Source: Solobacterium sp. (GTDB lineage Bacteria; Bacillota_I; Bacilli_A; Erysipelotrichales; Erysipelotrichaceae). From it: 38,584 nucleotides of DNA. Positions 3 to 27,352 of this stretch are shown here, in pieces. The notes beneath the pieces were generated by a model that saw only the letters and a program-made list of their open reading frames with translations, searched no databases and was not told the origin of the DNA. The translations under genes were made by a program, and so were the position numbers. Location: contig JAFOMZ010000098.1 in assembly GCA_017421125.1 (NCBI GenBank), positions 1-38,584 of the forward strand, in the 5' to 3' direction. Within the stretch, counting starts at the first letter, position 1. Every line of letters begins with the position of its first letter.

Positions 3-65
3 CTTGATCAGATCATTGCTTCTCTCAAGGAACCACCGCCTGATCTTGAAATGGTTCAAAGTTGA
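3..65 (+). CDS. possible C-terminal tail of an unrecognised protein (cut by window edge)
   Basis: A short open frame enters from the left edge and stops at TGA 63-65. It reads as a plausible hydrophilic C-terminus ending PPPDLEMVQS. Twenty residues are too few to name a family. It could equally be noise, because the minus-strand T-box leader points into this same stretch and should have its own gene here. Confidence 0.2.
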   Translation, partial: LDQIIASLKEPPPDLEMVQS

Positions 66-185
66 TTTTTAGCTTTTGCAGCACCACCTGTTTTTAATAC
101 GGACTTTTTTCGTAATACTTATGTCTATTTATTCACACTTTCTTTCTCCTTCTATTACAGTTAAAGTTCTATCAGGGAGGCCCTT

Positions 186-420
186 AAGAACAAAAAAGCC
201 GCCCTTGTCCAGGGACGACTGTTGATCGCGGTACCACTCTGGTTGCCGGCACAAATATACCGGCCTCTCTGTTCCTTAACGGGGAATTGCGGTTTTCCAT
301 ACTGTCAGTTCCGGAAAACTCCTCACAGATGCGGTTCACTGTATGCGGTGCCGCCGGACTTCCACTCTGTTCCGGCTCGCTGATGGACGTGTACAGCTAC
401 TCTTCTGTTCATCGGATTAA
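186..420 (-). promoter_or_regulatory. T-box leader (tRNA-sensing transcription attenuator)
   Basis: Read on the minus strand, this stretch has the ordered parts of a T-box riboswitch. Near the 5' end is a stem I base with GATGA and AGTA elements (ACAGA near 405 pairs with TCTGT near 328). A stem III hairpin (GCCGG ... CCGGC, about 244-264) follows. The conserved T-box core AGAGTGGTACCGCG lies at 227-240, and a terminator hairpin with a T6 tail at 191-219. In this family, uncharged tRNA pairs with the specifier triplet and with the T-box bulge, which stabilises the antiterminator and lets transcription continue into an aminoacyl-tRNA synthetase, biosynthesis or amino-acid transport gene. I could not fix the specifier codon by eye. 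No intact gene follows on the minus strand within the 185 bases left. Confidence 0.85.
191..219 (-). terminator. T-box attenuator terminator
   Basis: On the minus strand a GC-rich hairpin (GTCGTCCCT / AGGGCGGC with a bulged U) is followed by TTTTTTG. It lies directly after the T-box core and is the mutually exclusive partner of the antiterminator. Confidence 0.75.
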
Positions 421-425
421 TCATG

Positions 426-454
426 ATGATAAAAGAACGGAACTTTGATGTCAA
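426..454 (-). promoter_or_regulatory. sigma-A type promoter of the T-box leader
   Basis: On the minus strand a perfect TTGACA (454-449) is followed by a 17-base spacer and TATCAT (431-426). This predicts a transcript start near 419, just before the GATGA element of the leader. Confidence 0.75.
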
Positions 455-599
455 CCTAAGGAAAATCAAAAATTGTAAATTTGACGAAAATACGGCAAAG
501 TATGAAAAAGTTTTCAAAAGTGCTATGGCGGGATGAATATCAGAAAAAGTTCTGTTTCCGGCTGCTGTATGCATAAGTGTCATGCCGGTGCAGTACATG

Positions 600-608
600 T
601 GATATGAT
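600..608 (+). promoter_or_regulatory. extended -10 promoter candidate for the AEC permease
   Basis: TGA TATGAT forms an extended -10 element about 95 bases before the permease start. No good -35 is visible. The leader in between holds only a small GGACC/GGTCC hairpin near 664-676. Confidence 0.4.
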
Positions 609-704
609 GAAACAGCTTCAAAAGACAGCTGCGGGAAAAAGCACTGCAGTCCTGACTGAGAAGCGGACCTCAGGTCCCTATTATATAAATGTGAGGTTTA
701 ACAT

Positions 705-1643
705 ATGCAAAGTCTGTTCATAGCGGCAAGGGCAGTGATCCCGGTCACCCTGATCATGATCCTGGGTGCCCTGACAAGGAAATTCGGAACAGTCAGTGAA
801 AAGTCATTCAAGGATTTCAACTGGGTCGTATTCCATTACTGTCTGCCGATCTCATTGTTCATGAATATCGTGAATGCAGACATGAATTCCATCAGCAACA
901 TCTCCCTGATCATATTCGCGATCGCATCGATCCTGGTCATCATCGGCGTATCGATGCTGTTGACGAGAAACAGTTCCCTCCCGGATGAAAAGCTGGGCGT
1001 CATCGTCCAGGGACTGTTCAGGACGAACTTCGCGATCCTGGGCGTCCCGATCGTAGAAGGGATCTACGGAGCGGGAAATGCCGCGGTCGCGTCCGTCATG
1101 ATCGCGTTTGTCCTGCCGGTATTCAACATCACGGCAGTGCTTGTGCTGGAGAAATACTCGGGAAAACAGGGTGACCTGAAGCGGACCCTGCTCAATGTGC
1201 TGAAAAATCCGCTGATCATCGGTGCGATGATCGGATTCGTATTCAAGATCCTCCGCATTCCGCTGCCTGAAATAGCAGCCGCGACGATCCAGTCATTCAA
1301 CAGGATGACGACACCGCTGTCATTATTTGTTCTGGGCGGATGCTTCAACTACACGTCGCTGGCAGACAATAAAAAACTGCTTGGCATCTATACTGTGCTG
1401 AAAATGATCGTGGTCCCCATGATCGTTCTGACGGCTGCGGTCATGATCGGCTACAGAGGGGAAGAACTGGTAACACTGCTGGTACTGTTCGGAGGACCTG
1501 CTGCGATCAGCTCCTATACGATGGCTGTCCAGATGGGACTGGATGGAGACCTGGCATCCCAGTGTGTCGTCATAACAACGATCGCCGTTGTTGTGACGAT
1601 GTTCCTGTTTATCACCGGTTTCAGCGCCCTCGGTCTGCTTTAA
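705..1643 (+). CDS. AEC (auxin efflux carrier) family permease
   Basis: This 312-residue protein is hydrophobic throughout, with about ten predicted membrane segments in the two-bundle arrangement of the Mem_trans/AEC family. The N-terminal half has FHYCLPISLFMNIV, typical of the family's first bundle, and the C-terminal half has a glycine-rich LFGGPAAISSYTMA segment near residue 265. AEC members in Bacillota export or import small organic acids such as malate and lactate, or amino acids. The substrate cannot be read from sequence. The ATG at 705 is preceded by GAGG with a seven-base gap. The gene is monocistronic, closed by a terminator shared with the convergent FRG gene. Confidence 0.85.
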   Translation: MQSLFIAARAVIPVTLIMILGALTRKFGTVSEKSFKDFNWVVFHYCLPISLFMNIVNADMNSISNISLIIFAIASILVIIGVSMLLTRNSSLPDEKLGVIVQGLFRTNFAILGVPIVEGIYGAGNAAVASVMIAFVLPVFNITAVLVLEKYSGKQGDLKRTLLNVLKNPLIIGAMIGFVFKILRIPLPEIAAATIQSFNRMTTPLSLFVLGGCFNYTSLADNKKLLGIYTVLKMIVVPMIVLTAAVMIGYRGEELVTLLVLFGGPAAISSYTMAVQMGLDGDLASQCVVITTIAVVVTMFLFITGFSALGLL

Positions 1644-1648
1644 AAAAT

Positions 1649-1690
1649 ACTGTGAGCATTGTGTGATCCACGATACTCACAGTTTTTTTA
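1649..1690. terminator. bidirectional terminator between AEC permease and FRG protein
   Basis: ACTGTGAG (1649-1656) pairs with CTCACAGT (1676-1683). T7 follows on the plus strand and the complement of A6 (1642-1647) gives a T-run on the minus strand, so the hairpin can stop both convergent transcripts. Confidence 0.8.
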
Positions 1691-2500
1691 GTCCTGATCT
1701 TTGACGAAATAATGTCTTGCGATCCAGGTCGAGATACCATCCAGACCCGGATATACGATACGCTCATTGACATTGTACTGATCCAGCATGTCGCGGATGC
1801 GCCAGCGCAGATCCTTGGAAATGATGTATTTGATGGTCTTCTGATTATCGTTGTTCGCGAAGAAATCAACGATGCTGTGCATGTGGGTAGGCACGATCGA
1901 GAAGAACGAATACTGGTTGACGATGCGGGGATCGATGGAAGGCGGTTCGATGAACATCATACTGCGGTCCTCCATGTCCTCGTCATACTGCCTCAGGCTG
2001 CTGCAGGCTTCATTGAACATGTCCACCGAATAGATCGTCGTATTGTATTTCTTTGTGACTGCCCTGTATGAAGCAGGAAGATGCCGATACTGTTCGTCCA
2101 GATCGACTCTCCATACGACACCGTCGTATTTGTTGATGTTGTCCATGTTCCGTTCCGTGACTGCGAAATGCAGGGCGATCAGCGGTGACCTGGACCAGTC
2201 AAGCAGTCTGGTAGGAAGCCCGTGGTGCTGGCCGAGTATCATCTGGCGCCAGATGGAATCCTTGATGGAGGGATCCTCCAGGGCAGCGTATTTTGTGAAG
2301 TTGCGCAGGATGGAAGGCTCGAGAATGGCTTTCTTTTCCTTACAGTTGCGGTCCAGGGAAGTGACGATCTCATAGTCGGCACGCGTCATACCGCGATAAA
2401 CATACAGATTCCTGTTCCTGTCGATGTCAGAACGGTATGTCTGTTCGGTCAGAAGGGGATAAAGGTCTTCCATAGTATTGACATAGATCTCTTTGATCAT
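1688..2500 (-). CDS. FRG domain-containing protein
   Basis: This 270-residue soluble protein carries the hallmarks of the FRG domain (PF08867). A Y-R-G triplet lies at residues 35-37 and the family's most conserved segment, QHHGLPTRLLDWS, at 91-103, followed by SPLIALHFA. No signal peptide or membrane segment is visible. FRG proteins are widespread, often in accessory regions, and their biochemical activity is not settled, so no reaction is assigned. The start at 2500 has AGGAG eight bases upstream. It is the last minus-strand gene before the shared terminator. A separate terminator at 2551-2576 isolates it from phosphofructokinase upstream, so it is probably transcribed alone. Confidence 0.85.
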   Translation of the reverse strand: MIKEIYVNTMEDLYPLLTEQTYRSDIDRNRNLYVYRGMTRADYEIVTSLDRNCKEKKAILEPSILRNFTKYAALEDPSIKDSIWRQMILGQHHGLPTRLLDWSRSPLIALHFAVTERNMDNINKYDGVVWRVDLDEQYRHLPASYRAVTKKYNTTIYSVDMFNEACSSLRQYDEDMEDRSMMFIEPPSIDPRIVNQYSFFSIVPTHMHSIVDFFANNDNQKTIKYIISKDLRWRIRDMLDQYNVNERIVYPGLDGISTWIARHYFVKDQD

Positions 2501-2550
2501 AAAGTGGTCTCCTAAGTACTTATATCATACCCGTTTTCCGGAAGGGATTC

Positions 2551-2576
2551 AAAAAGGCCATGGCTGGACCATGGCC
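2551..2576 (-). terminator. terminator of the phosphofructokinase gene
   Basis: A perfect eight-base-pair hairpin (CCATGGCC pairing with GGCCATGG around a five-base loop) is followed on the minus strand by five T. It lies just after the phosphofructokinase stop. Confidence 0.75.
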
Positions 2577-2589
2577 TGGAACCTTCCGC

Positions 2590-3669
2590 TTATTCGTCGC
2601 CGAATGAGATGCCGAGAAGCTTCGCTTCCTGGATGATGCTTGCGTTCGGGTCAACTGTTTTCAGATTGCCTGCTACTTCCTGCAGCGGGGCTTTTACGAT
2701 CTCACGGTTCCTGTAGGCAACCATGAATCCGTATTCTTTGTTGAGGATCAGCTGTCCTGCTTCAGCACCGAGACGGCTTGCAAATACTCTGTCATAAGGG
2801 CACGGTGCGCCGCCGCGCTGTGTATGTCCGGGAACGGTTACTCTGACTTCTCTGCCTGTTCTTTCAAGGATCTGGGCAGCCAGTTCATAGGATACTGACG
2901 GATATTCTGATTTAGCGAGCTTCTTCTTGTACTGCTTCTTTGTCAGTGCAGCGTCTTCTTTGGAGATCGCGCCTTCAGCGACAGCCAGGATCGTGAAGCG
3001 GTGTCCGCTCTTTGAACGCTCTTCAATCACTTCAATGACCTTGTCGATGTCATAAGGGATCTCAGGGAGAAGGATGATGTCTGCGCCGCCGGCGATACCT
3101 GCGTTCAGAGGCAGCCATCCAACTTTATGACCCATGATCTCAACGATGAATACACGGCCATGTGAACTTGCGGTCGTATGGATCTCATCGATCGCGCGTG
3201 TAGCGATATCAACAGCCGACTGGAAGCCGAATGTCATATCTGTTCCCCAGAGGTCATTATCGATGGTCTTCGGAAGGGAGATGACGTTAAGGCCTTCTTC
3301 ACTCAGCAGATTAGCTGTCTTATGTGAACCGTTGCCGCCGAGTACAACAAGGCAGTTCAGCTGAAGCTTGTAATATGTGTCCTTCATCGCTTCAACTTTG
3401 TTGACGCCTTTTTCATCCGGTTCACGGATTGTTTTGAACGGAACACGGCTTGTGCCGAGAATGGTTCCGCCAATCGTCAGAATGTTGGAAAAGTCTTCCT
3501 CGGTCAGAATTCTGAAATGGCTGTAAATCAGTCCTTTGTATCCTTCATCAAAGCCATAGAATTCAACGGGCTCTTTACTGTTGCGGGTAACTGTTTTGAA
3601 CACACCGCGCATAGCAGCGTTAAGTGCCTGGCAGTCGCCTCCGCTTGTAAGCATACCGATCCTTAACAT
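2590..3669 (-). CDS. pfkA: 6-phosphofructokinase (PfkA superfamily, divergent subgroup)
   Basis: This 359-residue cytosolic enzyme phosphorylates fructose 6-phosphate to the 1,6-bisphosphate in glycolysis. Visible motifs are the N-terminal SGGD loop (9-12), GGNGS (111-115), PKTIDND with the catalytic Asp (133-139), GTDMTFGF, MGHKVGW and the C-terminal PGHTQRGG. The Gly after GGN favours ATP over pyrophosphate. The Lys in PKTIDND is shared with PPi-dependent and Gly/Lys mixed subgroups, so the phosphoryl donor is not certain. Asn113 stands where classical enzymes have the Mg-binding Asp of GGDGS. The ATG at 3669 has AGGAGG eight bases upstream. The gene has its own promoter and terminator, so it is monocistronic. 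Confidence 0.9.
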   Translation of the reverse strand: MLRIGMLTSGGDCQALNAAMRGVFKTVTRNSKEPVEFYGFDEGYKGLIYSHFRILTEEDFSNILTIGGTILGTSRVPFKTIREPDEKGVNKVEAMKDTYYKLQLNCLVVLGGNGSHKTANLLSEEGLNVISLPKTIDNDLWGTDMTFGFQSAVDIATRAIDEIHTTASSHGRVFIVEIMGHKVGWLPLNAGIAGGADIILLPEIPYDIDKVIEVIEERSKSGHRFTILAVAEGAISKEDAALTKKQYKKKLAKSEYPSVSYELAAQILERTGREVRVTVPGHTQRGGAPCPYDRVFASRLGAEAGQLILNKEYGFMVAYRNREIVKAPLQEVAGNLKTVDPNASIIQEAKLLGISFGDE

Positions 3670-3730
3670 GTCATTATCCTCCTGAATGATAGTTATGATT
3701 ACCTGAAAAGGTATTTATCTACATACCTGT

Positions 3731-3760
3731 ATCATAACGCAAAAACTATCATAATCTCAA
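3731..3760 (-). promoter_or_regulatory. promoter of the phosphofructokinase gene
   Basis: On the minus strand TTGAGA (3760-3755), an 18-base spacer and TATGAT (3736-3731) lie about 60 bases before the pfkA start, immediately after the stop of the upstream gene. Confidence 0.6.
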
Positions 3761-3763
3761 TTC

Positions 3764-4597
3764 TTAATCATAATATGCCTCAATATTTTTGCCGTCCGAG
3801 ACGATGTTGACATTGCCCTGATAAGTCAGGAAAACCTGCGCGTCATATTTGTCCAGCAGTTCCAGTGTTTTGTCTTCACCGCCCTCGGAAGCAGAGCATG
3901 TAATAACAGCATATTCAGGCTGTACGGAAGGGATCAGGTTCTTCAGCTGCTTCTGATAATTGCCGTGATAAGGCACCTTCAGCACATCATAAGAAGTGCT
4001 GTTCGCGGAAAGGAATTCCCTGATCCGGTCATTCTGGGCGTCGCCCATCAGCAGGAAGGATGTCTGTCCGTACTGCACGGTTATGATCAGGGAAGAGTTG
4101 TTGGAATCATCCGAATCATAATCGTCTGCGTCCGGTCCGTCGACCGTATACTGGATGCCGTCCAGCGTAAAACAGATCTGTTCATCACCGAATACGATCT
4201 CACTCTCAATGCCCGCAGCCTTCAGGGCAGAGATCAGGTCGTCATATTCATTGCTGTCTTTGGGACAGTCGGATAAAAGGACACGCCTGACTTCAATTGA
4301 TTCCAGTATCTCATCGGCACTCCCGATATGGTCCTTGTCAAAGTGCGTCAGGATCAGCGTATCCAGAGTTTTGATATTCAGACTGTTCAGTGTACTCAGT
4401 ATATACGGTGCGAATCCGTCCAGACCTGTATCGATCAGTACAGCACTCTCATCGGTATAGAGCAGGATGGCATCTGCTTTTCCTGCATTGAAGAATGTTA
4501 CGAAAAGCTGATCTGCTCTGCTGTTCTCCTGAGCCGCGCATCCCATTGTCACTGCCAGGGCAGCGCAGAGGATCACTTTCCTGATGTGTTTCAGCAT
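3764..4597 (-). CDS. secreted metallo-beta-lactamase-fold lipoprotein, ComEC C-domain-like
   Basis: This 277-residue protein begins with a lipoprotein signal ending VTMGC, with the lipidated Cys at 20. It then carries a metallo-beta-lactamase fold with THFDKDH as the H-x-D-x-D-H metal motif, MGDA as the later metal-binding Asp strand, and KVPYHG as the C-terminal His loop. This set matches the hydrolase domain of ComEC/Rec2 and its free-standing relatives, which are proposed nucleases or phosphodiesterases. The substrate here is inferred only. The ATG at 4597 is chosen over a GTG six bases earlier, because AAGGAGG lies eight bases before the ATG and only two before the GTG. It probably acts on the outer face of the membrane. 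Confidence 0.85.
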   Translation of the reverse strand: MLKHIRKVILCAALAVTMGCAAQENSRADQLFVTFFNAGKADAILLYTDESAVLIDTGLDGFAPYILSTLNSLNIKTLDTLILTHFDKDHIGSADEILESIEVRRVLLSDCPKDSNEYDDLISALKAAGIESEIVFGDEQICFTLDGIQYTVDGPDADDYDSDDSNNSSLIITVQYGQTSFLLMGDAQNDRIREFLSANSTSYDVLKVPYHGNYQKQLKNLIPSVQPEYAVITCSASEGGEDKTLELLDKYDAQVFLTYQGNVNIVSDGKNIEAYYD

Positions 4598-4762
4598 ATG
4601 CACTTCCTCCTTGCCTGTATTGTAAGACAGAAAGATACATGAAATGTGAGGGTTAACTGAAGTTTACGGGAAAGTTTTCCTTTCCGGTGAACACAGACAG
4701 AGGAATCATTTTTCGTGTAAGAGCGGCTGAACGGAAACAGACGGTATGTTTTGCGGACAGAT

Positions 4763-4811
4763 AAAAAAGATGCAGTACCGCCGGCAGTGACTGCTGCTCA
4801 GCTGCTGCATC
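4763..4811 (-). terminator. terminator of the MATE transporter gene
   Basis: On the minus strand GATGCAG pairs with CTGCATC, with a second small hairpin in the loop, and a T6 run follows. It begins about ten bases after the MATE stop. Confidence 0.65.
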
Positions 4812-4820
4812 CTGTTATGA

Positions 4821-6197
4821 TCAGTTCAATGAACCGAATGCTTTCTTTTTCCACTTTCCCCGGCGGAATGCGAAGGCTGTCATCGCGGCGCCTAATACCC
4901 ATGAGATCAGCAGCGAGATAAAGATACAGGAGCTGCTGCCGTTGGGCAGGTCGGGAGTCCTTGTCATCCATGAGATCAGGTACGCAAGCGGCACACGGAT
5001 CAGGATCGTTGTGACCATTGAGATGATCATGGGCGTGACCGTATCCCCGGCACCTCTCATGACACCGGATATGGACTGGGTATATGCCATCGCAACATAA
5101 CCGATCATCAGGATCTTCAGCATGGAATAGCTCAGCTGGACCAGTTCTTCGGTGGATGTAAAGATATGCATCAGCGGTTTTCCGAACAGGAAGATCAGTG
5201 ATACAAGCACGATGGATGTTCCTACGGCGACCATGGTCCCTTCACGGGCACCCTGTTCGACACGGTCCATCTTGGCTGCGCCTACATTCTGGGCAGCGAA
5301 CGTTGTCATGGCAGAGCCGAATGAGAACGTCGGCATCATGACAAAGCCGTCGATACGCATCACGATGACGTTTGCGGCGATGAACATTTCCCCAAAGCTG
5401 TTGATCAGTGACTGCACGACAACGCTGGACATGGAGAAGATGACCTGTGTGAGTCCGGAGGGAAGTCCGACACGGATCAGCTCCCTGATGTATTTCATGT
5501 TGGGCTTCAGCATTTCCTTTTTAAATGTGAAGCAGTCCATGTGCATCAGCTTGCGCAGTGACAGGATCGCCGAAATAAACTGCGCGATGACCGTCGCGTA
5601 GGCAACACCCGGTACGCCGAGTCCGACATGTGCAACAAATATATAGTCAAGTACGGTATTGATCACGGTCGCGGTAAACAGGTAGACCAGTGCCGAGAAG
5701 GAATCGCCCAGTCCTCTCAGGATCGCGCCGAGGATAAAGTAGAACGCATTGCCGGCAATGCCCAGGAAGACGATCGTCAGATACTGCGCGCACCAGTCCA
5801 GTACGCTAGGCGGTGTATTGACGAGTCTCAGCATCGGCCTGATCACAAACGGTGTCATGCACATGATAAACAGGGACGCTGCCGCTGTAACGAATATGCA
5901 GGCGCCGATCGATCTGGCTAGATCGTCCTGCTGTCTGGCGCCGAAATACTTGGCGACAACGATGCCCGCACCGGTACTGATGCCGATGATCAGGACGAAC
6001 AGAAGATTCATGATCGGTCCGGCGGAACCGACTGCCGCAAGGGCGTTGTCACCGATAAATTTTCCGACTATGACACTGTCTGCCGTGTTGTATAACTGCT
6101 GCGCCACATTCCCTATCAACATCGGTACAGCGAATGCAACGATCTTCTGCCGGCAGCTGCCGTATGTCATGTCGATCTGCTGTGTAATGGAAGCCAT
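4821..6197 (-). CDS. MATE family multidrug/cation efflux transporter
   Basis: This 458-residue membrane protein has twelve hydrophobic segments in two homologous halves. The conserved MATE N-terminus reads PMLIGNVAQQLYNTADSVIVGKF, followed by ALAAVG, which is diagnostic. These proteins exchange Na+ or H+ for organic cations or drugs across the cytoplasmic membrane; the substrate is unknown here. The start is placed at ATG 6197 with GAGGTG immediately upstream. An in-frame GTG six bases earlier is part of that ribosome binding site. The gene is divergent from the sugar importer, and its C-terminus is Lys-rich and cytosolic. Confidence 0.9.
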   Translation of the reverse strand: MASITQQIDMTYGSCRQKIVAFAVPMLIGNVAQQLYNTADSVIVGKFIGDNALAAVGSAGPIMNLLFVLIIGISTGAGIVVAKYFGARQQDDLARSIGACIFVTAAASLFIMCMTPFVIRPMLRLVNTPPSVLDWCAQYLTIVFLGIAGNAFYFILGAILRGLGDSFSALVYLFTATVINTVLDYIFVAHVGLGVPGVAYATVIAQFISAILSLRKLMHMDCFTFKKEMLKPNMKYIRELIRVGLPSGLTQVIFSMSSVVVQSLINSFGEMFIAANVIVMRIDGFVMMPTFSFGSAMTTFAAQNVGAAKMDRVEQGAREGTMVAVGTSIVLVSLIFLFGKPLMHIFTSTEELVQLSYSMLKILMIGYVAMAYTQSISGVMRGAGDTVTPMIISMVTTILIRVPLAYLISWMTRTPDLPNGSSSCIFISLLISWVLGAAMTAFAFRRGKWKKKAFGSLN

Positions 6198-6272
6198 ATT
6201 CACCTCTGTTTCATAACACTAGCAGGAACAGCACAAACATGCAATCAGAACACATTGTTAAATGCAGGAAAG

Positions 6273-6281
6273 TGCTAAAAT
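6273..6281 (+). promoter_or_regulatory. extended -10 promoter of the sugar ABC operon
   Basis: TGC TAAAAT lies about 50 bases before the first operon gene, with TTGTTA at 6255-6260 as a poor, closely spaced -35. I see no CcpA-like cre palindrome that I would defend. Confidence 0.4.
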
Positions 6282-6332
6282 AAAATCAGATTACTTTTTT
6301 ATTCATAATATTCTGAATTGGAAGGGGACCTT

Positions 6333-7436
6333 ATGAAAATCGTATTAGAGCATCTGACAAAACGTTACCCGAACCGCAACAAGAAGATCGGCGGATTTGT
6401 TGTTGCGGTGGATGATTTCAACTTCGAGATCCCGGACGGACAGCTGATCGGTCTGCTCGGACCTTCGGGATGTGGGAAAAGCACTACGCTGAATATGATC
6501 TGCGGTCTTGAAACACCGACCGAGGGGAAGATCTATTTCGGCGACGATGATGTGACCGAACTGCCTCCCGAGAAACGCGGAGTCGGCATGGTGTTCCAGA
6601 GCTATGCCCTGTATCCTCACCTGACTGTCAGACAGAACATCATGTTCCCGCTGGAAAACCTGAAGGGGGCCCAGAAACTGACGAAGGAAGAGATGGAACG
6701 GCGTGCCCAGGAAGCGGCCGAGATGGTCCAGATCGAACGTCTGATGGACAACAAGCCTTCTGAAATGTCGGGCGGACAGCAGCAGCGTGTTGCCATTGCG
6801 AGAGCACTGGTCAAGAGACCGAGAGTCCTGCTTCTGGATGAACCGCTCTCCAACCTGGACGCAAGACTGCGACTGCAGACACGTGAGGAGATCCGCAGGA
6901 TCCAGCAGGAGACAAAGATCACAACTGTTTTCGTCACGCATGACCAGGAAGAAGCCATGAGCATCTCTGATATGATCGTCGTCATGTCTGCAGGTGTTTT
7001 CCAGCAGATGGGCAGACCGCAGGATGTATATGATCATCCGAAAAACCTGTTCGTAGCAAAGTTCCTCGGAACCCCGGCGATCAATGTCTTTGACGGAGCA
7101 GTCAGAGCAGGAAAACTGTACCTCGGTGAAGATGCGGTAATGGATGTCAGAGGTGTGGAAGACCAGGAGGTCTATGTTGGTATCCGTCCGGAGGGATTCA
7201 TCCTGGATGATAACGGACCGATGCACTGCGGCCTGAACAGAGTGGAAGTCATGGGAAGGGATACAACAGTCGTATCGACACATCCTTCCGCACAGACCGA
7301 CATGATCCGTGTGATCATTCCTTCCGAAAGCAGGACCGCTGCATTGGAAAACACAGTCAATTTCAGTCTGAAGCCGTTCAAGGTACATCTGTTCGATAAA
7401 GAGACCGAAGATACGATTCCGTTTACATACGAATAG
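6333..7436 (+). CDS. carbohydrate ABC importer ATPase, MalK/UgpC/MsmK type
   Basis: This 367-residue ATPase powers the importer encoded downstream. It shows Walker A GPSGCGKST, Q-loop FQSYALYPH, signature MSGGQQQR, Walker B RVLLLDEPLSNLD and the switch His in VFVTHD. About 120 C-terminal residues match the regulatory TOBE region of MalK/UgpC proteins. This class feeds glycerol-3-phosphate, maltodextrin or oligosaccharide importers and is sometimes shared between systems. The ATG at 6333 follows GGAAGGGG by five bases; a TTG fifteen bases earlier overlaps that site and is rejected. It opens a tightly packed four-gene operon, with a 12-base gap to the next start. Confidence 0.92.
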   Translation: MKIVLEHLTKRYPNRNKKIGGFVVAVDDFNFEIPDGQLIGLLGPSGCGKSTTLNMICGLETPTEGKIYFGDDDVTELPPEKRGVGMVFQSYALYPHLTVRQNIMFPLENLKGAQKLTKEEMERRAQEAAEMVQIERLMDNKPSEMSGGQQQRVAIARALVKRPRVLLLDEPLSNLDARLRLQTREEIRRIQQETKITTVFVTHDQEEAMSISDMIVVMSAGVFQQMGRPQDVYDHPKNLFVAKFLGTPAINVFDGAVRAGKLYLGEDAVMDVRGVEDQEVYVGIRPEGFILDDNGPMHCGLNRVEVMGRDTTVVSTHPSAQTDMIRVIIPSESRTAALENTVNFSLKPFKVHLFDKETEDTIPFTYE

Positions 7437-7448
7437 CAGGAGGTGCAT

Positions 7449-8339
7449 ATGTATAAAAACAGTGCAAAGGCCTGGCTGTATCTGCTGCCGGCCCTGATCT
7501 TCCTGTCCGTCTTCATGATCTATCCTTTGTTTGATGTCATGATCTATTCGGTAGAGGAAGGCTACAATTCCGCTTCCCAGACATACTTCGGCGTCGGTGC
7601 ATACAACTACAGATATGTACTGCGCGACCCGTATTTCCTGCAGGCGGTCAAGAATACATTTATCCTTGTTATCATCACGGTCCCCGTTTCGACCGGCGTG
7701 GCACTGCTGATCTCATTGGGACTGAATTCCATCCAGAAGCTGAGGGACCTGTTCCAGACGATCTTCTTCCTGCCGTATGTCACCAATACGCTGGCAGTCG
7801 GCCTGGTATTCATGATCCTGTTCAAGAAGACTCCGTATTCGGACGGCTTCATCAACCTGATCATCAATGCCTTCGGAGGGAACACGATCGACTTCATCGA
7901 AGGACCGTACTGGGCAAAGATGTTTGTCATGTGCTTCTATACCATCTGGGTGGTCATGCCGTTCAAGATCCTGATCCTGACCAGCGCGCTGGCATCGGTA
8001 GATAAAGATCTTTACAAGGCAGCCAAGGTAGACGGCGCGACCAGCTTCCGGATCTTCCGGAAGATCACGCTCCCGATGATCTCACCGATGATCTTCTATC
8101 TGATCATCACCGGATTTATCGGCGCATTCAAAGCATACAGCGATGAAGTTGCGATCTTCGGAACCAATCTGAACGCCGCAGGTATGAACACGATCGTCGG
8201 CTATGTCTATGACATGCTGTACGGTGACAGCGGCGGATATCCTTCCTACGCGAGTGCCGCGGCACTGATCCTGTTCGCGATCGTTCTGACCATTACGTGC
8301 ATCAATCTGCTGGCCAGCAGGAAGACTACGGTTTCGTGA
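7449..8339 (+). CDS. carbohydrate ABC importer permease, MalF/UgpA type
   Basis: This 296-residue inner-membrane protein has six predicted membrane segments. The EAA-loop of binding-protein-dependent permeases reads KAAKVDGATSFRIFRKITLP, and it docks the ATPase. The short form, without the large periplasmic P2 loop of enterobacterial MalF, is usual for Gram-positive UgpA/MsmF-type subunits. The ATG at 7449 has AGGAGG five bases upstream; a GTG at 7443 lies inside that site. It pairs with the following permease to make the membrane channel. Confidence 0.92.
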   Translation: MYKNSAKAWLYLLPALIFLSVFMIYPLFDVMIYSVEEGYNSASQTYFGVGAYNYRYVLRDPYFLQAVKNTFILVIITVPVSTGVALLISLGLNSIQKLRDLFQTIFFLPYVTNTLAVGLVFMILFKKTPYSDGFINLIINAFGGNTIDFIEGPYWAKMFVMCFYTIWVVMPFKILILTSALASVDKDLYKAAKVDGATSFRIFRKITLPMISPMIFYLIITGFIGAFKAYSDEVAIFGTNLNAAGMNTIVGYVYDMLYGDSGGYPSYASAAALILFAIVLTITCINLLASRKTTVS

Positions 8340-8347
8340 GGTGGACT

Positions 8348-9226
8348 ATGACAACGATGAATGAAATTCAACAGGCAAAAAAGTCCGCTGAAAGAAGCCA
8401 GCGTATCCGTACGGTCATCACATATACGCTGCTTGTCCTGTGGGGACTGATCGTCCTGTTCCCGTTTTACTGGATGATCCTGACATCACTGAAGAGCTAC
8501 AGCGCTTATAACAGCGAATATATTCCGAAACTCTATACAACAGCCCCGACATTCCAGAACTACGCGGATGCGTTTACGGCCGTACCGCTTGCCAGATACT
8601 TCGGCAATACGATCATCTTTACGCTGATAACGACCATACTCATGCTGGTGGTAACGATCCTTGCGGCATTTGCTTTCTCAAGGCTGGAATTCAAAGGAAA
8701 GAACCTTGTTTTCACGATGTTCCTGGCACTTATGATGATCCCCAATGAGCTGGTCATCATCACGAACTTCGTTACGATCACCAACGCAGGTCTGAGAAAT
8801 ACGTTTGCCGGTCTGATCCTGCCTTCAGTCGCCTCGATCTTCTATATCTATCTGCTGAAGGAGAATTTTGAGCAGATCCCGGAGGAACTGTATAAGGCGG
8901 CGAAGGTGGACGGCACGAGCGATCTCAAGTACCTGCTCAAGGTCATGATCCCGATCTGCCAGCCGACGATCGTCACGATCACGATCCTGAAAGTCATCGA
9001 ATGCTGGAACTCCTATGTATGGCCGAGACTGATCACAGATGACGCAATGTACTTCCTTGTTTCCAACGGTATTCAGGAGATCAGGGAAAACGGCTTCGGA
9101 CGTGAGAACATTCCCGCCATGATGGCAGCGGTCGTTGTCATCTCGGTTCCGCTGATCATTCTGTTCCTGATCTTCCACAAAAAGATCATGGCGGGTGTTT
9201 CCCGGGGAGGCACGAAAGGCGCATGA
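8348..9226 (+). CDS. carbohydrate ABC importer permease, MalG/UgpE type
   Basis: This 292-residue second permease has six membrane segments. Its EAA loop reads KAAKVDGTSDLKYLLKVMIP, and LFPFYWMILTSLK near the N-terminus is typical of MalG/UgpE/AraQ. The ATG at 8348 lies four bases after a GAGGTGG ribosome binding site that overlaps the upstream stop; ATG 8357 is an alternative. Its TGA overlaps the ATG of the binding-protein gene, so translation of the two is probably coupled. Confidence 0.92.
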   Translation: MTTMNEIQQAKKSAERSQRIRTVITYTLLVLWGLIVLFPFYWMILTSLKSYSAYNSEYIPKLYTTAPTFQNYADAFTAVPLARYFGNTIIFTLITTILMLVVTILAAFAFSRLEFKGKNLVFTMFLALMMIPNELVIITNFVTITNAGLRNTFAGLILPSVASIFYIYLLKENFEQIPEELYKAAKVDGTSDLKYLLKVMIPICQPTIVTITILKVIECWNSYVWPRLITDDAMYFLVSNGIQEIRENGFGRENIPAMMAAVVVISVPLIILFLIFHKKIMAGVSRGGTKGA

Positions 9227-21455: not shown

Positions 21456-24400
21456 ATGAAGCAGAAACGTATTGTCTTATGGCTTCGCGTAATGCTGAGC
21501 TTTGTTCTGTGTATGACACAGAACATGACAGTGTTTGCGGAAGAGGAATCGGAAACAATAAGAGAAGAAGAAATGACAGAAACACTGCCCGAGGTGACGG
21601 AAGAAACCGGATCCGGGGAAGTTTTGGAAGAGGAAGAATCCGCTGAGGAAGATACTGAAACGGGTTTAAAAGCTGAGATCTCTGAAGAGGCTGACGTAAC
21701 AGAAGGTGAAGAAACTGAACCGGAGGCCGCGGATGAATCATACGAAGATGTGCCGGATGAAGAATATTACGTTGAGTATGACGGCTTTGCGCACATCCTT
21801 CAGGAAGGCAGCATGCTTTACAGCAGAGAAGAAGCGTCTGCTTTTGCCGGAGGTTTTACATACCCTATCGATGAGAACTTTGATGAGCTTACCGATCGGC
21901 TGACAGCTGCTGCCTTAATCCGTGACGGTGAACTGGATGTCAGAGATCTTGGGATCCCGGCAAGCGAAGCGGGCAATGTATTTCAATACCTTATCAACAA
22001 TAATCCGCAGCTTTTCTATGTGAAGGGGCAAATTGGTTTTTTTTCCAATCCGGCAACTGGAATGGTCACGACATATGCCCTGCAGTACGATAATTACACA
22101 TCGTCGGATATCGATGCTTTTCATGCAAAGGTATCGGAAATCCTTTCAGGCATCGACAATTCATGGAATGACGAACAGAAGGCGCTGTACCTCCATGACG
22201 TCCTGGTCATTAACAATACATATGACGAAACATATTCAAAATCCAACGCGTATAACGCACTTGTCGAAGGGACATCTGTGTGCCAGGGGTACTCGCTTGC
22301 TTATAAATACCTGCTGAACCAGGCCGGGATTGCATGCGACATCATATCAAGCGATGAACTCGTACATGCCTGGAATGCTGTTACGCTGAATGGCATGACA
22401 TATTATGTGGATGTGACCTTTGATGACCCGACAGGCACTTACAGGATGTACTGCAGCCACGAAAACTTCCTGTTAAGCAGGGATGAAATGATCGAAGCGG
22501 GACATGATTCCGATGACTGGGTGAACACCAGGGGGGATGTTGTTTTCGATACACTGGCGATGGAGTCATATCCGGGAGCTTACTGGTCTGAATGTAAAAC
22601 AAGGATTCCCGCTGTGCAGTCCCTCTGGGCGTATACAAAAAATGACAAGAATATCTATGTTCATGATTATTCTTCAGGTACGGACAGCCTCCTGACCGAC
22701 GAACTCCAGGGTATCTGGCATGATCCCGCAAATCCCGGATCTTATTACACGAAATATTATGCCTCGCTCGATTCTTATCATAACTTCTTCCTTGCTTCCC
22801 AGGAGGATGCGGTTTATACCGTCAAAACAGACGGGACTGTCAGTGAAATCGGAAAGCTTGATGAAGACGAACTGGCATACGGACGTATTTACGGGATTCA
22901 GACCGTTAACGATACAGTCAGATATGATGTTTATTGCAACCCGGATATTAACGGCGAACTGCAATTTGATTATTTCGACATTCCCGCTTCTGAAGAAGGC
23001 GGAAATCGTTTTCCGGTGGAGGATTACTTTGACGAACTCACCAGGAGGCTGATTGAAGCGGCAGCTAACCAGGAACACATCCTGGACGTCGCAGACCTGC
23101 AGATTCCGGAAGAAGACAGCGATTATGTGTTCTATTACCTGATCACCCATAATCCGCAGCTGTTCTATGTGACCGGGACAGGAAGCCATACGACAAACTT
23201 TACATATGTCGGGACATATACTCTGCAGTATCCCGGATACACACAGTCAGATATCGATTTGTTTGACGAAAGAATCTCCCGGATCCTCTCCGGTATTGAC
23301 AGCAGCTGGAATGATGAACAGAAAGCACTGTACCTGCATGATGTGCTCGTGACCGAGACAGCAGTTGACACGACAGGGAACAGCCGGAGTATTTATGATG
23401 CGCTGGTCATGGGTGAAGCCACGAGCCGCGGTTACGCGCTTGCTTATAAATACCTGCTGAACCAGGCCGGGATTGAATGTGACATTATCGGAAGTCCTGA
23501 ACTCAGCCATGCCTGGAATGCCGTGGTGATCAGTGGGAAGACATATTATGTTGATACAGTAAAGGATGATCAGGACGAGAACTATGTCATGTACTGCGGT
23601 CACGCCAATTTCCTGAGAAGCAGAGAAGGAATGCGAGAAGAAGGCCACAGTACAACAGACTGGCTCAATACGAAAGACGAGAATGTATACAATACGCTGG
23701 CACTCGAAGAATACCCGGTGAACTGGTGGAAAGACAGCACGACAAAGATCCCATCTGCCGGGAAGCTTTACGCGTATACGAAGAAAGATCCTGCATCAGG
23801 AATCTGGGTCCATGACTACAGTGACGGGACAGACCGTGTTCTGACATCGGAACTGAACGGCACATGGGATAAATTGGATGGAGAAGGTGCCTGGACAGAC
23901 AATTTCACATCGCTCGATTCTTATCATGACCAGTTCCTTGCCTCCCGGCAGGACAGTGTATACCTCATTAAAACTGACGGAACAGTCAGGAAGGTCTATG
24001 CGTTGGAAGACAGTGAAATGAACAGAGGCCGAATCTACGGCATCAAAACGACCGGTGACCAGGTGAGGTACTGGGTTTACAGCGGACCGGGAAGTGACAA
24101 CTACCAGTACACTGACTGTTTTGATATTCCTGATGAACAAGAGGTCGTCCATGTGACATCGCTGGTGTTCAATGTCTCAGAACCGACAGTCTGCATACCG
24201 GGAACCCAGGTGAACTTCACGGTCACAGTCCTGCCGGAAGAGGCGGATGATCGCAGTGTGACCTGGGAAAGTGACCATCCGGAGACCGCTGCTGTCGATG
24301 ATGAAGGAAAGATGACTGCGGTGGCGCCCGGAACAGCTGTGATTACTGCAAGGTCTGTTTCTGATCCGGATGTCTTTGCTGAGCATCAGGTTATCATAAA

Positions 24401-27062
24401 ACCGGAAGTTTCTTCCGTAACGATTTCCGAGAAAGATGTGGTGATGGAAAAAGGTGAAACATACCAGCTTACGGCAGAAGTTCTGCCGGCAGATGCCATC
24501 AGTACGAAGGTGACATGGTCATCTGATAATGAATTCGCTGCGTCAGTTGACGAAAACGGACTGGTAACGGCACTGAAAGGAGGGACGGCGATTATTGTTG
24601 CCCTGACGGAAAGCGGGCAGCTTGCGGATGCCTGCACGGTGACTGTCATTGCCCATCCGGAAAGCATACAGATCATTGAATTTGATCCGGCAACCATGGA
24701 GGAAACAGTCCTTTCTGATATTGCGCTTGAGGAAGGAACAGAAAAACAGCTGGTTGCGAAAGTGATGCCCCTGGATACCTCTGATAAGAGAGTGACATGG
24801 TCTTCGGACCATCCGGAAACTGCGGAAGTGGACCGGGACGGTCTTGTCAGGGCAGTCTCCATCGGTACGGCTGTCATTACCGCAAAAACAAATGACGGTG
24901 GGCTGAGTGCTTCCGTGACAGTGACTGTTACCGAGATCCCGGTCAGGGGGATCCGTATCCTGAACGAAGTGAAATACCTGCCGATTGGAAAAGAAATACA
25001 GATCATATATGCCATTGAACCGAAGAACGCAACTCACCAGGAAGTGACATTTGAAAGCAGTAATCCTGAAATCGCCCCGGTCAGTGAAACCGGTGTCGTG
25101 ACAGGTGTTTCTGAAGGGATAGCGGTGATTACCGTACGGTCAGGGGAGTTCAGCGATGATTTCACAGTCGAAGTCACGCAGGATGGCATTTACACCAATG
25201 AGGTCCCGAAGACATTTGAATACACCGGCTCTGCCATCAAACCGGCAGTGCAGGTATATGACTCCGGGCAGCTGCTGAAGGCAGGGACGGATTATACCCT
25301 CACATATAAGAACAACATCAAAGCAGGAACGGCGACGATCACCCTGAAGATGAAGGGCAACTACACCGGAAGTGAGACGATCACGTTTGAAATCCTGCCG
25401 TTATCCCTGCAGGATGAAAGGGTCAGGACGGAAGAACTGACCCTGCAGACGACGGGAAAGATGCTGAATCCCGCACCAGTGGTGTATTTCGGTACGAAGA
25501 AGCTTGTCAAAGGAACCGACTATACGATCGCTGCGTACACGCTGGACGGTGAGGACTGGGACAGGAAGAGTCCCGGTGAAGTGACACTTACCATTCAGGG
25601 AAAGGGTAATTATTCCGGTGAGATCACTGTCAAAGCATCTGTCGTGCCAAAGGGGAATACCCTGATCCCGGTAAACAAACTCACTGTTTCTGCGAAGAGC
25701 GTGAAATACCAGGATCTTGACGGGGATAACTTCGAAGAAGAAATCATCCCGAACCTGACCGTGAAAAACGGGAAGCAGAAGCTGGTGTATCCGGATGACT
25801 TTATCGTTGCTGAAATACCTTCGGCTTACCGAAATACCGGGACACTGAGATTTGTGATTGAAGGCACCGGGAAATACACCGGCAGAAGGACTGTGAGTAT
25901 GAAGGTGACCGGTATCTCCCTGACTGACAAAAAGATGAAGAATGCAAATATCGGGACATATATGTATAACGGGAAACCGCAGACACTGCAGGATGGATTC
26001 GGACTGACATATAACGGTATTGATCTGGAACCGGAAGACTTCGTGATCCTGGAGGACACATATACAAACAATGTGAATGCAGGGACTGCTTCTGTCCAGG
26101 TCGAAGGAAGAAGGGGATTCACCGGCAAACGTACCGTGAAGTTCACCATTCTGCCAAACAGTGAAGTAATTACACTGGATGATATTACATATGAAGAAGA
26201 AGTACCGTATGCAAAAGGCGGGGCGAAAGCACAGATCCGGGTGTATGACGAAGAACTCGGGCTGCTTGCCGAAGGGAGGGACTATACAGTCACCTATACC
26301 GGCATTACCAGGATCGGAACAGGGTCCGCCACAGTGAAGTTTAAAGGCAACTACAAAGGGACGGATTCACAGGTTGTGTATTATAACATTCTGCTGAAAG
26401 ATATCCCTGAAACGGAAGTTACGGTGAAAGATGTTGTGTACAGCAGTACTGCCGGTAAGTATAAGAGCACGCCTTCCCTGAAGGATACAGACAAAAAAGC
26501 CCTGAAGGCGGGGACGGATTATCTGAAGTCATATGTATATGAGCTGGACAATGAGGACGGTACATATACACTGCTTGGCGCAAAAGACAAAGTGCCTGCT
26601 GGTTCAAAGATCAGGGTCACCGTCACCGGGAGGAATAATTACACCGGCACAGCGTATGGGTACTACCGGGTGATTTCCAAAGGGGCGGACATCAGTAAAG
26701 CGGTGTTCACAGTCACTTCTCGGCAATACACAGGGGAAGCAGTTACGCTGGACGGGAGTTCATTCACAAAAGCACTGATCAACAAGACAACAGATCTTGT
26801 TTATGGTGTGGATTATGAGATTGTAAGCTACGCAAACAACATCAAAAAAGGAACAGCTTCCGCCACGCTCCACGGTATCAACAATTACGGCGGATATAAG
26901 ACGGTGAAATTCAAGATCACGGAGAAGCCGCTGAGTGAGCACTGGCTGGACAGAAACAGCCCGCTGACACTTTCCGGGATCAACAACATTTATGAAGCGT
27001 CGAATGTAACAGTGGAATTCCTGAAAGCGAGGCTGGGAAAAGAGGACTTTTATTTCCAGTAA
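21456..27062 (+). CDS. large secreted protein: two transglutaminase-like modules, Ig-like domains and beta repeats
   Basis: This 1868-residue protein has a signal peptide ending near TVFA, then a Glu/Thr-rich linker to about residue 110. Two homologous modules of about 381 residues follow. Module 1 has a transglutaminase-like triad C276, H304 (HAWN) and D319. Module 2 has the same spacing, S657, H685 and D700, so its Cys is replaced. Four Ig-like group 2 domains (VTWSSD, GTAVITA) span about 898-1243. Seven beta repeats of 70-90 residues run to about 1855, with cores such as AGTDYTLTYKNN and GNYTGS. No LPxTG or other anchor is seen, and the C-terminus looks truncated by the in-frame stop (see next entry). 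It probably acts outside the cell on proteins or wall peptides. Confidence 0.88.
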   Translation: MKQKRIVLWLRVMLSFVLCMTQNMTVFAEEESETIREEEMTETLPEVTEETGSGEVLEEEESAEEDTETGLKAEISEEADVTEGEETEPEAADESYEDVPDEEYYVEYDGFAHILQEGSMLYSREEASAFAGGFTYPIDENFDELTDRLTAAALIRDGELDVRDLGIPASEAGNVFQYLINNNPQLFYVKGQIGFFSNPATGMVTTYALQYDNYTSSDIDAFHAKVSEILSGIDNSWNDEQKALYLHDVLVINNTYDETYSKSNAYNALVEGTSVCQGYSLAYKYLLNQAGIACDIISSDELVHAWNAVTLNGMTYYVDVTFDDPTGTYRMYCSHENFLLSRDEMIEAGHDSDDWVNTRGDVVFDTLAMESYPGAYWSECKTRIPAVQSLWAYTKNDKNIYVHDYSSGTDSLLTDELQGIWHDPANPGSYYTKYYASLDSYHNFFLASQEDAVYTVKTDGTVSEIGKLDEDELAYGRIYGIQTVNDTVRYDVYCNPDINGELQFDYFDIPASEEGGNRFPVEDYFDELTRRLIEAAANQEHILDVADLQIPEEDSDYVFYYLITHNPQLFYVTGTGSHTTNFTYVGTYTLQYPGYTQSDIDLFDERISRILSGIDSSWNDEQKALYLHDVLVTETAVDTTGNSRSIYDALVMGEATSRGYALAYKYLLNQAGIECDIIGSPELSHAWNAVVISGKTYYVDTVKDDQDENYVMYCGHANFLRSREGMREEGHSTTDWLNTKDENVYNTLALEEYPVNWWKDSTTKIPSAGKLYAYTKKDPASGIWVHDYSDGTDRVLTSELNGTWDKLDGEGAWTDNFTSLDSYHDQFLASRQDSVYLIKTDGTVRKVYALEDSEMNRGRIYGIKTTGDQVRYWVYSGPGSDNYQYTDCFDIPDEQEVVHVTSLVFNVSEPTVCIPGTQVNFTVTVLPEEADDRSVTWESDHPETAAVDDEGKMTAVAPGTAVITARSVSDPDVFAEHQVIIKPEVSSVTISEKDVVMEKGETYQLTAEVLPADAISTKVTWSSDNEFAASVDENGLVTALKGGTAIIVALTESGQLADACTVTVIAHPESIQIIEFDPATMEETVLSDIALEEGTEKQLVAKVMPLDTSDKRVTWSSDHPETAEVDRDGLVRAVSIGTAVITAKTNDGGLSASVTVTVTEIPVRGIRILNEVKYLPIGKEIQIIYAIEPKNATHQEVTFESSNPEIAPVSETGVVTGVSEGIAVITVRSGEFSDDFTVEVTQDGIYTNEVPKTFEYTGSAIKPAVQVYDSGQLLKAGTDYTLTYKNNIKAGTATITLKMKGNYTGSETITFEILPLSLQDERVRTEELTLQTTGKMLNPAPVVYFGTKKLVKGTDYTIAAYTLDGEDWDRKSPGEVTLTIQGKGNYSGEITVKASVVPKGNTLIPVNKLTVSAKSVKYQDLDGDNFEEEIIPNLTVKNGKQKLVYPDDFIVAEIPSAYRNTGTLRFVIEGTGKYTGRRTVSMKVTGISLTDKKMKNANIGTYMYNGKPQTLQDGFGLTYNGIDLEPEDFVILEDTYTNNVNAGTASVQVEGRRGFTGKRTVKFTILPNSEVITLDDITYEEEVPYAKGGAKAQIRVYDEELGLLAEGRDYTVTYTGITRIGTGSATVKFKGNYKGTDSQVVYYNILLKDIPETEVTVKDVVYSSTAGKYKSTPSLKDTDKKALKAGTDYLKSYVYELDNEDGTYTLLGAKDKVPAGSKIRVTVTGRNNYTGTAYGYYRVISKGADISKAVFTVTSRQYTGEAVTLDGSSFTKALINKTTDLVYGVDYEIVSYANNIKKGTASATLHGINNYGGYKTVKFKITEKPLSEHWLDRNSPLTLSGINNIYEASNVTVEFLKARLGKEDFYFQ
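22294..22332 (+). repeat. 39-base perfect direct repeat, copy 1
   Basis: This block encodes most of LAYKYLLNQAGI in transglutaminase module 1 and is identical to 23437-23475, exactly 1143 bases (381 codons) downstream. The flanks have diverged. Confidence 0.85.
23437..23475 (+). repeat. 39-base perfect direct repeat, copy 2
   Basis: Second copy, in module 2 of the large secreted protein. It is in frame with copy 1 and identical over all 39 bases. Confidence 0.85.
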
Positions 27063-27352
27063 ATGGACGGCGGCGCTGAAGAGATCAAAGATGCGGATAT
27101 CATCATCGTCAAACTGGAAAGCCAGGTCAAAATCACGGATGATGTATATGGTGACAGCACGCTTGGCTGGCTGCTGTCCCCGGAAGAAAACGGCTGGGGG
27201 ATTATCCCTGCAGTGTCACGCTGACATCGGGATATTTCTCCGATTGGCCGAAGACGCTCTTCGGTGAAGATGCAGTCGGTATGTACAGACTGACGCTGAA
27301 AGATACAGTTTCGGGAGAAGAAACGGCATATTATATCAGGGTCGGTGAGTGA
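27063..27352 (+). pseudogene. eroded C-terminal end of the large secreted protein
   Basis: Immediately after the TAA at 27060-27062 the same frame stays open for about 54 residues of normal composition (IKDADIIIVKLESQVKITDD ... LGWLLSPEENGWG). Then one base is missing in a run of five G (near 27195-27199). The shifted frame reads on with DYPCSVTLTSGYFSDWPKTL ... TAYYIRVGE and ends at TGA 27350-27352. TAA to a sense codon plus a sixth G would extend the protein by about 96 residues into what looks like a final beta domain. The piece has no ribosome binding site of its own. Confidence 0.7.

Follow-up and report, generated by a model that had tools for sequence, protein, structure and literature searches.

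We have identified, in a secreted surface protein of a gut bacterium, two transglutaminase-like (TG-like) modules in tandem, the first with a complete Cys-His-Asp triad and the second with Ser in place of the Cys. We propose that they form an active/inactive pair, in which module 2 is probably a pseudoenzyme serving as a non-catalytic partner of module 1 in cis. The protein is encoded in what we call the window, the whole 38,584-nucleotide stretch of DNA analysed, whose closest named genomes are Solobacterium MAGs (RUI216, RUI107 and others from goat or sheep gut) of the Erysipelotrichaceae; the bacterium is of the rumen type. The neighbouring genes, which encode a beta-lactamase-family protein (upstream) and a ZIP transporter (downstream), give no hint of function. 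The features of the locus are as follows.

21456..27062, + strand: whole ORF, a secreted surface protein of 1868 aa (translation; conserved in the sister genome, G103)
21456..21539, + strand: predicted signal peptide, residues 1-28, with the boundary ...MTVFA/EE (by reading the sequence)
21540..21782, + strand: acidic low-complexity linker, residues 29-109 (by reading the sequence)
21849..22985, + strand: module 1, residues 132-510, a TG-like domain of active type with a C-terminal extension (module alignment, AF2, TglA match)
22281..22283, + strand: codon of Cys276 (TGC), the catalytic residue of module 1 (translation)
22365..22367, + strand: His304 codon, module 1 (translation)
22410..22412, + strand: Asp319 codon, module 1 (translation)
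22611..22985, + strand: beta-propeller-like fragment of module 1, ~3 blades, residues ~386-510 (DSSP of the model; propeller matches)
22998..24131, + strand: module 2, residues 515-892, a pseudo-TG domain lacking the Cys, with the same extension (alignment, AF2, TglA match)
23424..23429, + strand: Ser657-Arg658 (AGC CGC), replacing Cys276-Gln277 (alignment)
23508..23510, + strand: His685 codon, kept in module 2 (translation)
23553..23555, + strand: Asp700 codon, kept in module 2 (translation)
23754..24131, + strand: beta-propeller-like fragment of module 2, residues ~767-892 (DSSP of the model; propeller matches)
24147..25175, + strand: four Big_2/Big-like bacterial Ig-like repeats, residues ~898-1240 (Pfam)
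25176..26954, + strand: further Ig-like repeats of the DYTVTYxNNxxxGTxxVxxxGNYxG type (~55% identity to the single-module relative L036)
27063..27349, + strand: cut-off, decaying C-terminal domain 3′ of the TAA stop (in-frame ATG; frameshift near 27200)

Each module consists of a TG-like domain of ~250 aa followed by ~130 aa of beta strands. No Pfam family matched the repeat stretch at 25176..26954, and the 1868-aa protein has no LPXTG motif.

Homology, active sites and predicted folds of the modules

The two modules are homologous rather than alike by chance, because they share 53% identity over 381 columns (E 7e-136). The Pfam family Transglut_core (PF01841) matches the whole protein in two stretches, with 34.8 bits against a curated cut-off of 23. 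The initial annotation had described identical triad spacing in modules 381 codons apart, with the Cys replaced and the His and Asp kept in the second copy, and translation agrees on each count: the triad of module 1 is C276/H304/D319 and its counterpart in module 2 is S657/H685/D700, with spacings of 28 and 15 residues in both and an offset of exactly 381 residues. The Cys-His-Asp triad of module 1 is complete and aligns with those of relatives; module 2 fails the same comparison, with S657 for the Cys. The idea that another Cys might move into the site does not hold, as C675 and C714 of module 2 align with the non-catalytic C294 and C333 of module 1 and no substitute is present.

The changes in module 2 extend beyond the Cys noticed at first. 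When 31 modules were aligned, the Cys-bearing rows showed conservation of 90% or more at 36 columns; module 1 departs from none of these (0/36) and module 2 from seven (7/36), the highest count of all rows. Three columns that are invariant in every Cys-bearing row are lost in module 2 (Y256>V637, C276>S657 and Q277>R658), and two further changes lie near the site (V275>T656 and T321>V702). Divergence between the modules amounts to ~1.1 substitutions per column, and their identity around the former site, 62-66%, is not below that of other segments. As judged from the alignment, the pattern in module 2 is one of a scaffold kept and a catalytic pocket altered, and the module presumably lacks catalysis.

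Structure prediction of both modules, which had been suggested as a check, returned a confident TG-like fold for each (AF2; pLDDT 90.8 and pTM 0.91 for module 1, pLDDT 90.0 and pTM 0.90 for module 2), and the models thus assign a TG fold to both, module 2 included. Their best structural match is in each case TglA (9crn), against which module 1 scores Z 20.9 and module 2 scores Z 17.8. The C-terminal ~130 aa per module are modelled as roughly 10 strands and match propeller fragments with Z about 10-11, among them the three-bladed fragments 6r5z (module 2) and Pizza3 3ww8 (module 1). These lengths, strand numbers and matches would fit a special form of the explanation we favour, in which the two ~3-blade fragments close into one six-bladed propeller and fix the active and inactive TG domains around it as a covalent pseudo-dimer. 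However, each module is modelled confidently by itself and the same fragment occurs in single-module relatives, and we consider such a closed propeller quite unlikely.

It has also been suggested, in the initial annotation, that the Ser form is a weak hydrolase, the Cys-to-Ser change having made module 2 a Ser-His-Asp enzyme such as a serine esterase or amidase. Although Ser, His and Asp stand at the exact spacing, and a single base separates the Cys codon TGC (22281) from the Ser codon AGC (23424), the four neighbouring residues listed above changed along with the Cys, Y256 and Q277 being invariant positions, and an Arg stands immediately after the Ser. The C277S mutant of TG2, likewise a replacement of Cys by Ser, has reportedly been used as an inactive form, and this too argues against conversion to a hydrolase. 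Because module 2 has lost other invariant pocket residues yet keeps the modelled fold, we favour a pseudoenzyme over a serine hydrolase.

Selection on module 2 and erosion of the 3′ end

In a sister species (G103, Solobacterium sp. RUI216), the two-module protein is found again, 99% identical across 1833 aa, and the contig encoding it is collinear with the window for ~20 kb (96.3% nucleotide identity). Ser657 and Arg658 are identical in G103. Ser657 is not a sequencing slip, because the sister species has the same Ser and module 2 appears to be under purifying selection. The initial annotation had pictured homologues with Cys at both sites, which would mark the Ser as a recent mutation; the sole other two-module relative of this type, that of G103, has Ser.

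Across the whole ORF, the window and G103 differ by 32.5 synonymous and 17.5 nonsynonymous changes (50 substitutions), giving a nonsynonymous/synonymous ratio of 0.16. Taken separately, module 1 has a ratio of 0.10 and module 2 one of 0.21, values that do not differ significantly. Module 2 has 6.5 nonsynonymous and 8.5 synonymous changes, against a neutral expectation of ~78% nonsynonymous (binomial p about 0.001-0.007, a range that comes from rounding the 6.5 changes). Its ratio lies below neutrality, and module 2 is therefore, by this comparison, under purifying selection, a conservation that is shallow in that it spans two closely related species and 50 substitutions. Module 2 has thus lost a conserved catalytic residue, is predicted to retain the fold and is under selection, as befits a pseudoenzyme.

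The 3′ end of the gene tells of erosion. Both species have an in-frame TAA (27060-27062) that cuts the ORF off from a domain of which ~95 more codons follow; other surface proteins of both genomes carry this domain as well (G000:C271:22578-22844, and at the very C-terminus in L223). In G103, an extra stop lies upstream of the cut-off domain, and in the window the domain itself is interrupted by a frameshift. The gene may be slowly declining. The main ORF is still open and constrained, but surface attachment may have changed. In a rival reading, module 2 or the whole gene is decaying after duplication and the second copy is functionless, a reading to which the loss of the C-terminal domain by stops in both species, its further breakage in the window and the slightly higher, though not significantly different, ratio of module 2 lend some support. 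We regard it as improbable: 1833 codons are open in both species, module 2 evolves below the neutral ratio and has a confidently predicted fold, and around the site the two modules have stayed well matched for their divergence.

Rarity of the tandem and loss of Cys among relatives

Two such modules in one chain were found only in the window and G103 among 70 genomes of the genus, 315 of the order and 45 named loci, and a phylum sample of 392 genomes held no other tandem of the same type. One candidate for a parallel case, L215, was rejected; its two TG modules are of different subfamilies and both have Cys. That locus (46-9000) encodes a Lachnospiraceae protein of at least 2984 aa carrying both of these modules. 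Matches to PF01841 occur in 59 of the 70 genomes of the genus and added no clue to the tandem. In our tree, modules 1 and 2 group with the single-module relative L070/L036 (support 99/97), and neither of two branching orders is rejected, one with modules 1 and 2 as a clade (p-AU 0.45) and one joining module 2 with L070 (p-AU 0.16). Because the tree joins both modules with L070/L036 but leaves the three unordered, the duplication is placed close to the split from L036/L070. Identity between L036 and the window protein is 50% across the module and 55% across the repeats; a C-terminal DUF4838 (Pfam, 280 bits) is fused onto this TG/Ig-like protein (L036, 2660-8653). G103 also has an ORF of ~3650 aa (L066) with one TG module and, by eye, many Big_2-like repeats together with leucine-rich repeats of the BspA-like kind.

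Inspection of the catalytic columns in all fetched relatives, with truncated and frameshifted matches left out, yielded 138 non-redundant cores with an intact triad and six without the Cys. An 'AHD' core in L216 was set aside, its Cys sitting in another frame owing to a frameshift. The six Cys-less cores are module 2, L174/L090, with Gly, and L144, L145, L151 and L157, with Ser; the other single-module relatives have the Cys. In Lachnospiraceae, L174/L090 reads AKGRGYALAYKY at the site, with Gly for Cys and His and Asp kept, and adjoins a gene that is 58% identical to it and whose site is intact. These adjacent genes (L217, G315:C10:105500-125000; L090), with an intact TG site in one and Gly-Arg for Cys-Gln in the other, both encode large secreted-type proteins. 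The four Ser cases are stand-alone surface proteins of the window's genus, from four genomes (G052, G014, G015 and G104), with Big_2 repeats in L047 (= L144) and L157 and SLH domains at least in L047. The His of their HAWN motif is lost or displaced (the motif reads DWFWN in L144, SWFWN in L145, PETWN in L151 and YFIN in L157). On the evidence of these alignments, Cys loss is recurrent among TG-like surface modules.

Of the six Cys-less cores, four have Arg directly after the position of the lost Cys; no Cys-bearing module has it there (Fisher p 9e-7, relatedness left out of account). Judged by taxon and subfamily, the four cases represent three lineages. A degenerate DNA pattern for R/S-G-Y/F-x-L/F-A-Y/F, run on 315 genomes, gave matches about as frequent as its reversed control and was dropped beyond the known cases.

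The relatives also speak against a serine hydrolase, in that all four parallel Ser cases have the HAWN His lost or displaced and the Lachnospiraceae case has Gly, not Ser. With the His lost or displaced in most other Cys-less cases, serine-hydrolase conversion is therefore unlikely as a general explanation, and for module 2, whose site residues changed with the Cys, we think it very unlikely.

Proposed mechanism and comparison with known systems

The TG fold also houses proteases and hydrolases. In the model we favour, the secreted protein would be presented on its Ig-like stalk, and module 1 would be a papain-like TG-superfamily enzyme that turns its Cys-His-Asp triad on extracellular proteins, as a crosslinking or deamidating transglutaminase or as a thiol hydrolase. 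Module 2 arose by internal tandem duplication and would then have become a pseudoenzyme, with fold, His and Asp kept and the nucleophile and several pocket residues lost. As a non-catalytic partner in cis, it would most likely bind substrate or hold module 1 in position through pairing of the modules; with Ser, His and Asp all present, residual chemistry is possible. The built-in pseudo-enzyme envisaged in the initial annotation is supported by sequence, selection, structure prediction and parallel cases; of the roles offered there, binding substrate, presenting an acceptor or regulating module 1, any may apply.

A broader view, which we hold to be rather doubtful, is that in gut Bacillota extracellular TG-like modules have been converted into non-catalytic binders again and again, with Cys-Gln often becoming Ser-Arg or Gly-Arg, and that such binders are at times coupled to an active copy, in the same chain in the window and in a neighbouring gene in Lachnospiraceae (L217), the half-propellers here joining the pair as a pseudo-dimer.

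Eukaryotic signalling offers well-studied tandems of an active and an inactive enzyme domain. A limited literature search turned up no such tandem described for bacterial extracellular TG-like proteins. If our proposal is true, the protein offers a small, expressible system for asking what an active module gains from a pseudoenzyme twin in cis, and a Transglut_core annotation of a gut surface protein need not mean catalysis. The recurrent Arg after the lost Cys is a simple sequence flag for further cases.

Among known systems, TglA of Streptococcus pyogenes (PDB 9crn, PF01841) is the best match to both modules in structure and in sequence (profile E 1e-18) and has the same VCxGY, HAWN and VDVTW motifs, but it has a single Cys-bearing module, and the solved chain lacks an Ig-like stalk and a Cys-less second copy. 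Single-module relatives within the genus, such as L036/L070 (Solobacterium RUI107), L037 and the window genome's own paralogue L038, have the same secreted layout of acidic leader, TG domain with extension and Ig-like repeats; they differ in having only one module, with the Cys present. The stand-alone proteins L144/L047, L145/L048, L151 and L157 resemble module 2 in having Ser for Cys, sometimes followed by Arg, and differ in lacking an active partner in the chain, in the lost or displaced His and in belonging to another TG subfamily. EPB42 (band 4.2), FBXO21 and menin have TG-like folds without a working catalytic site and act as scaffolds (PMC10318531); unlike the window protein, they are eukaryotic and intracellular and have no active copy in the same chain. 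In JAK kinases, an inactive kinase duplicate controls the active kinase within one polypeptide (JH1/JH2; PMC10211241), and in receptor tyrosine phosphatases, an inactive D2 domain recruits substrates beside the active D1 (PMC7320164). To both of these, the tandem described here is alike in design only, their folds being unrelated and their setting eukaryotic signalling.
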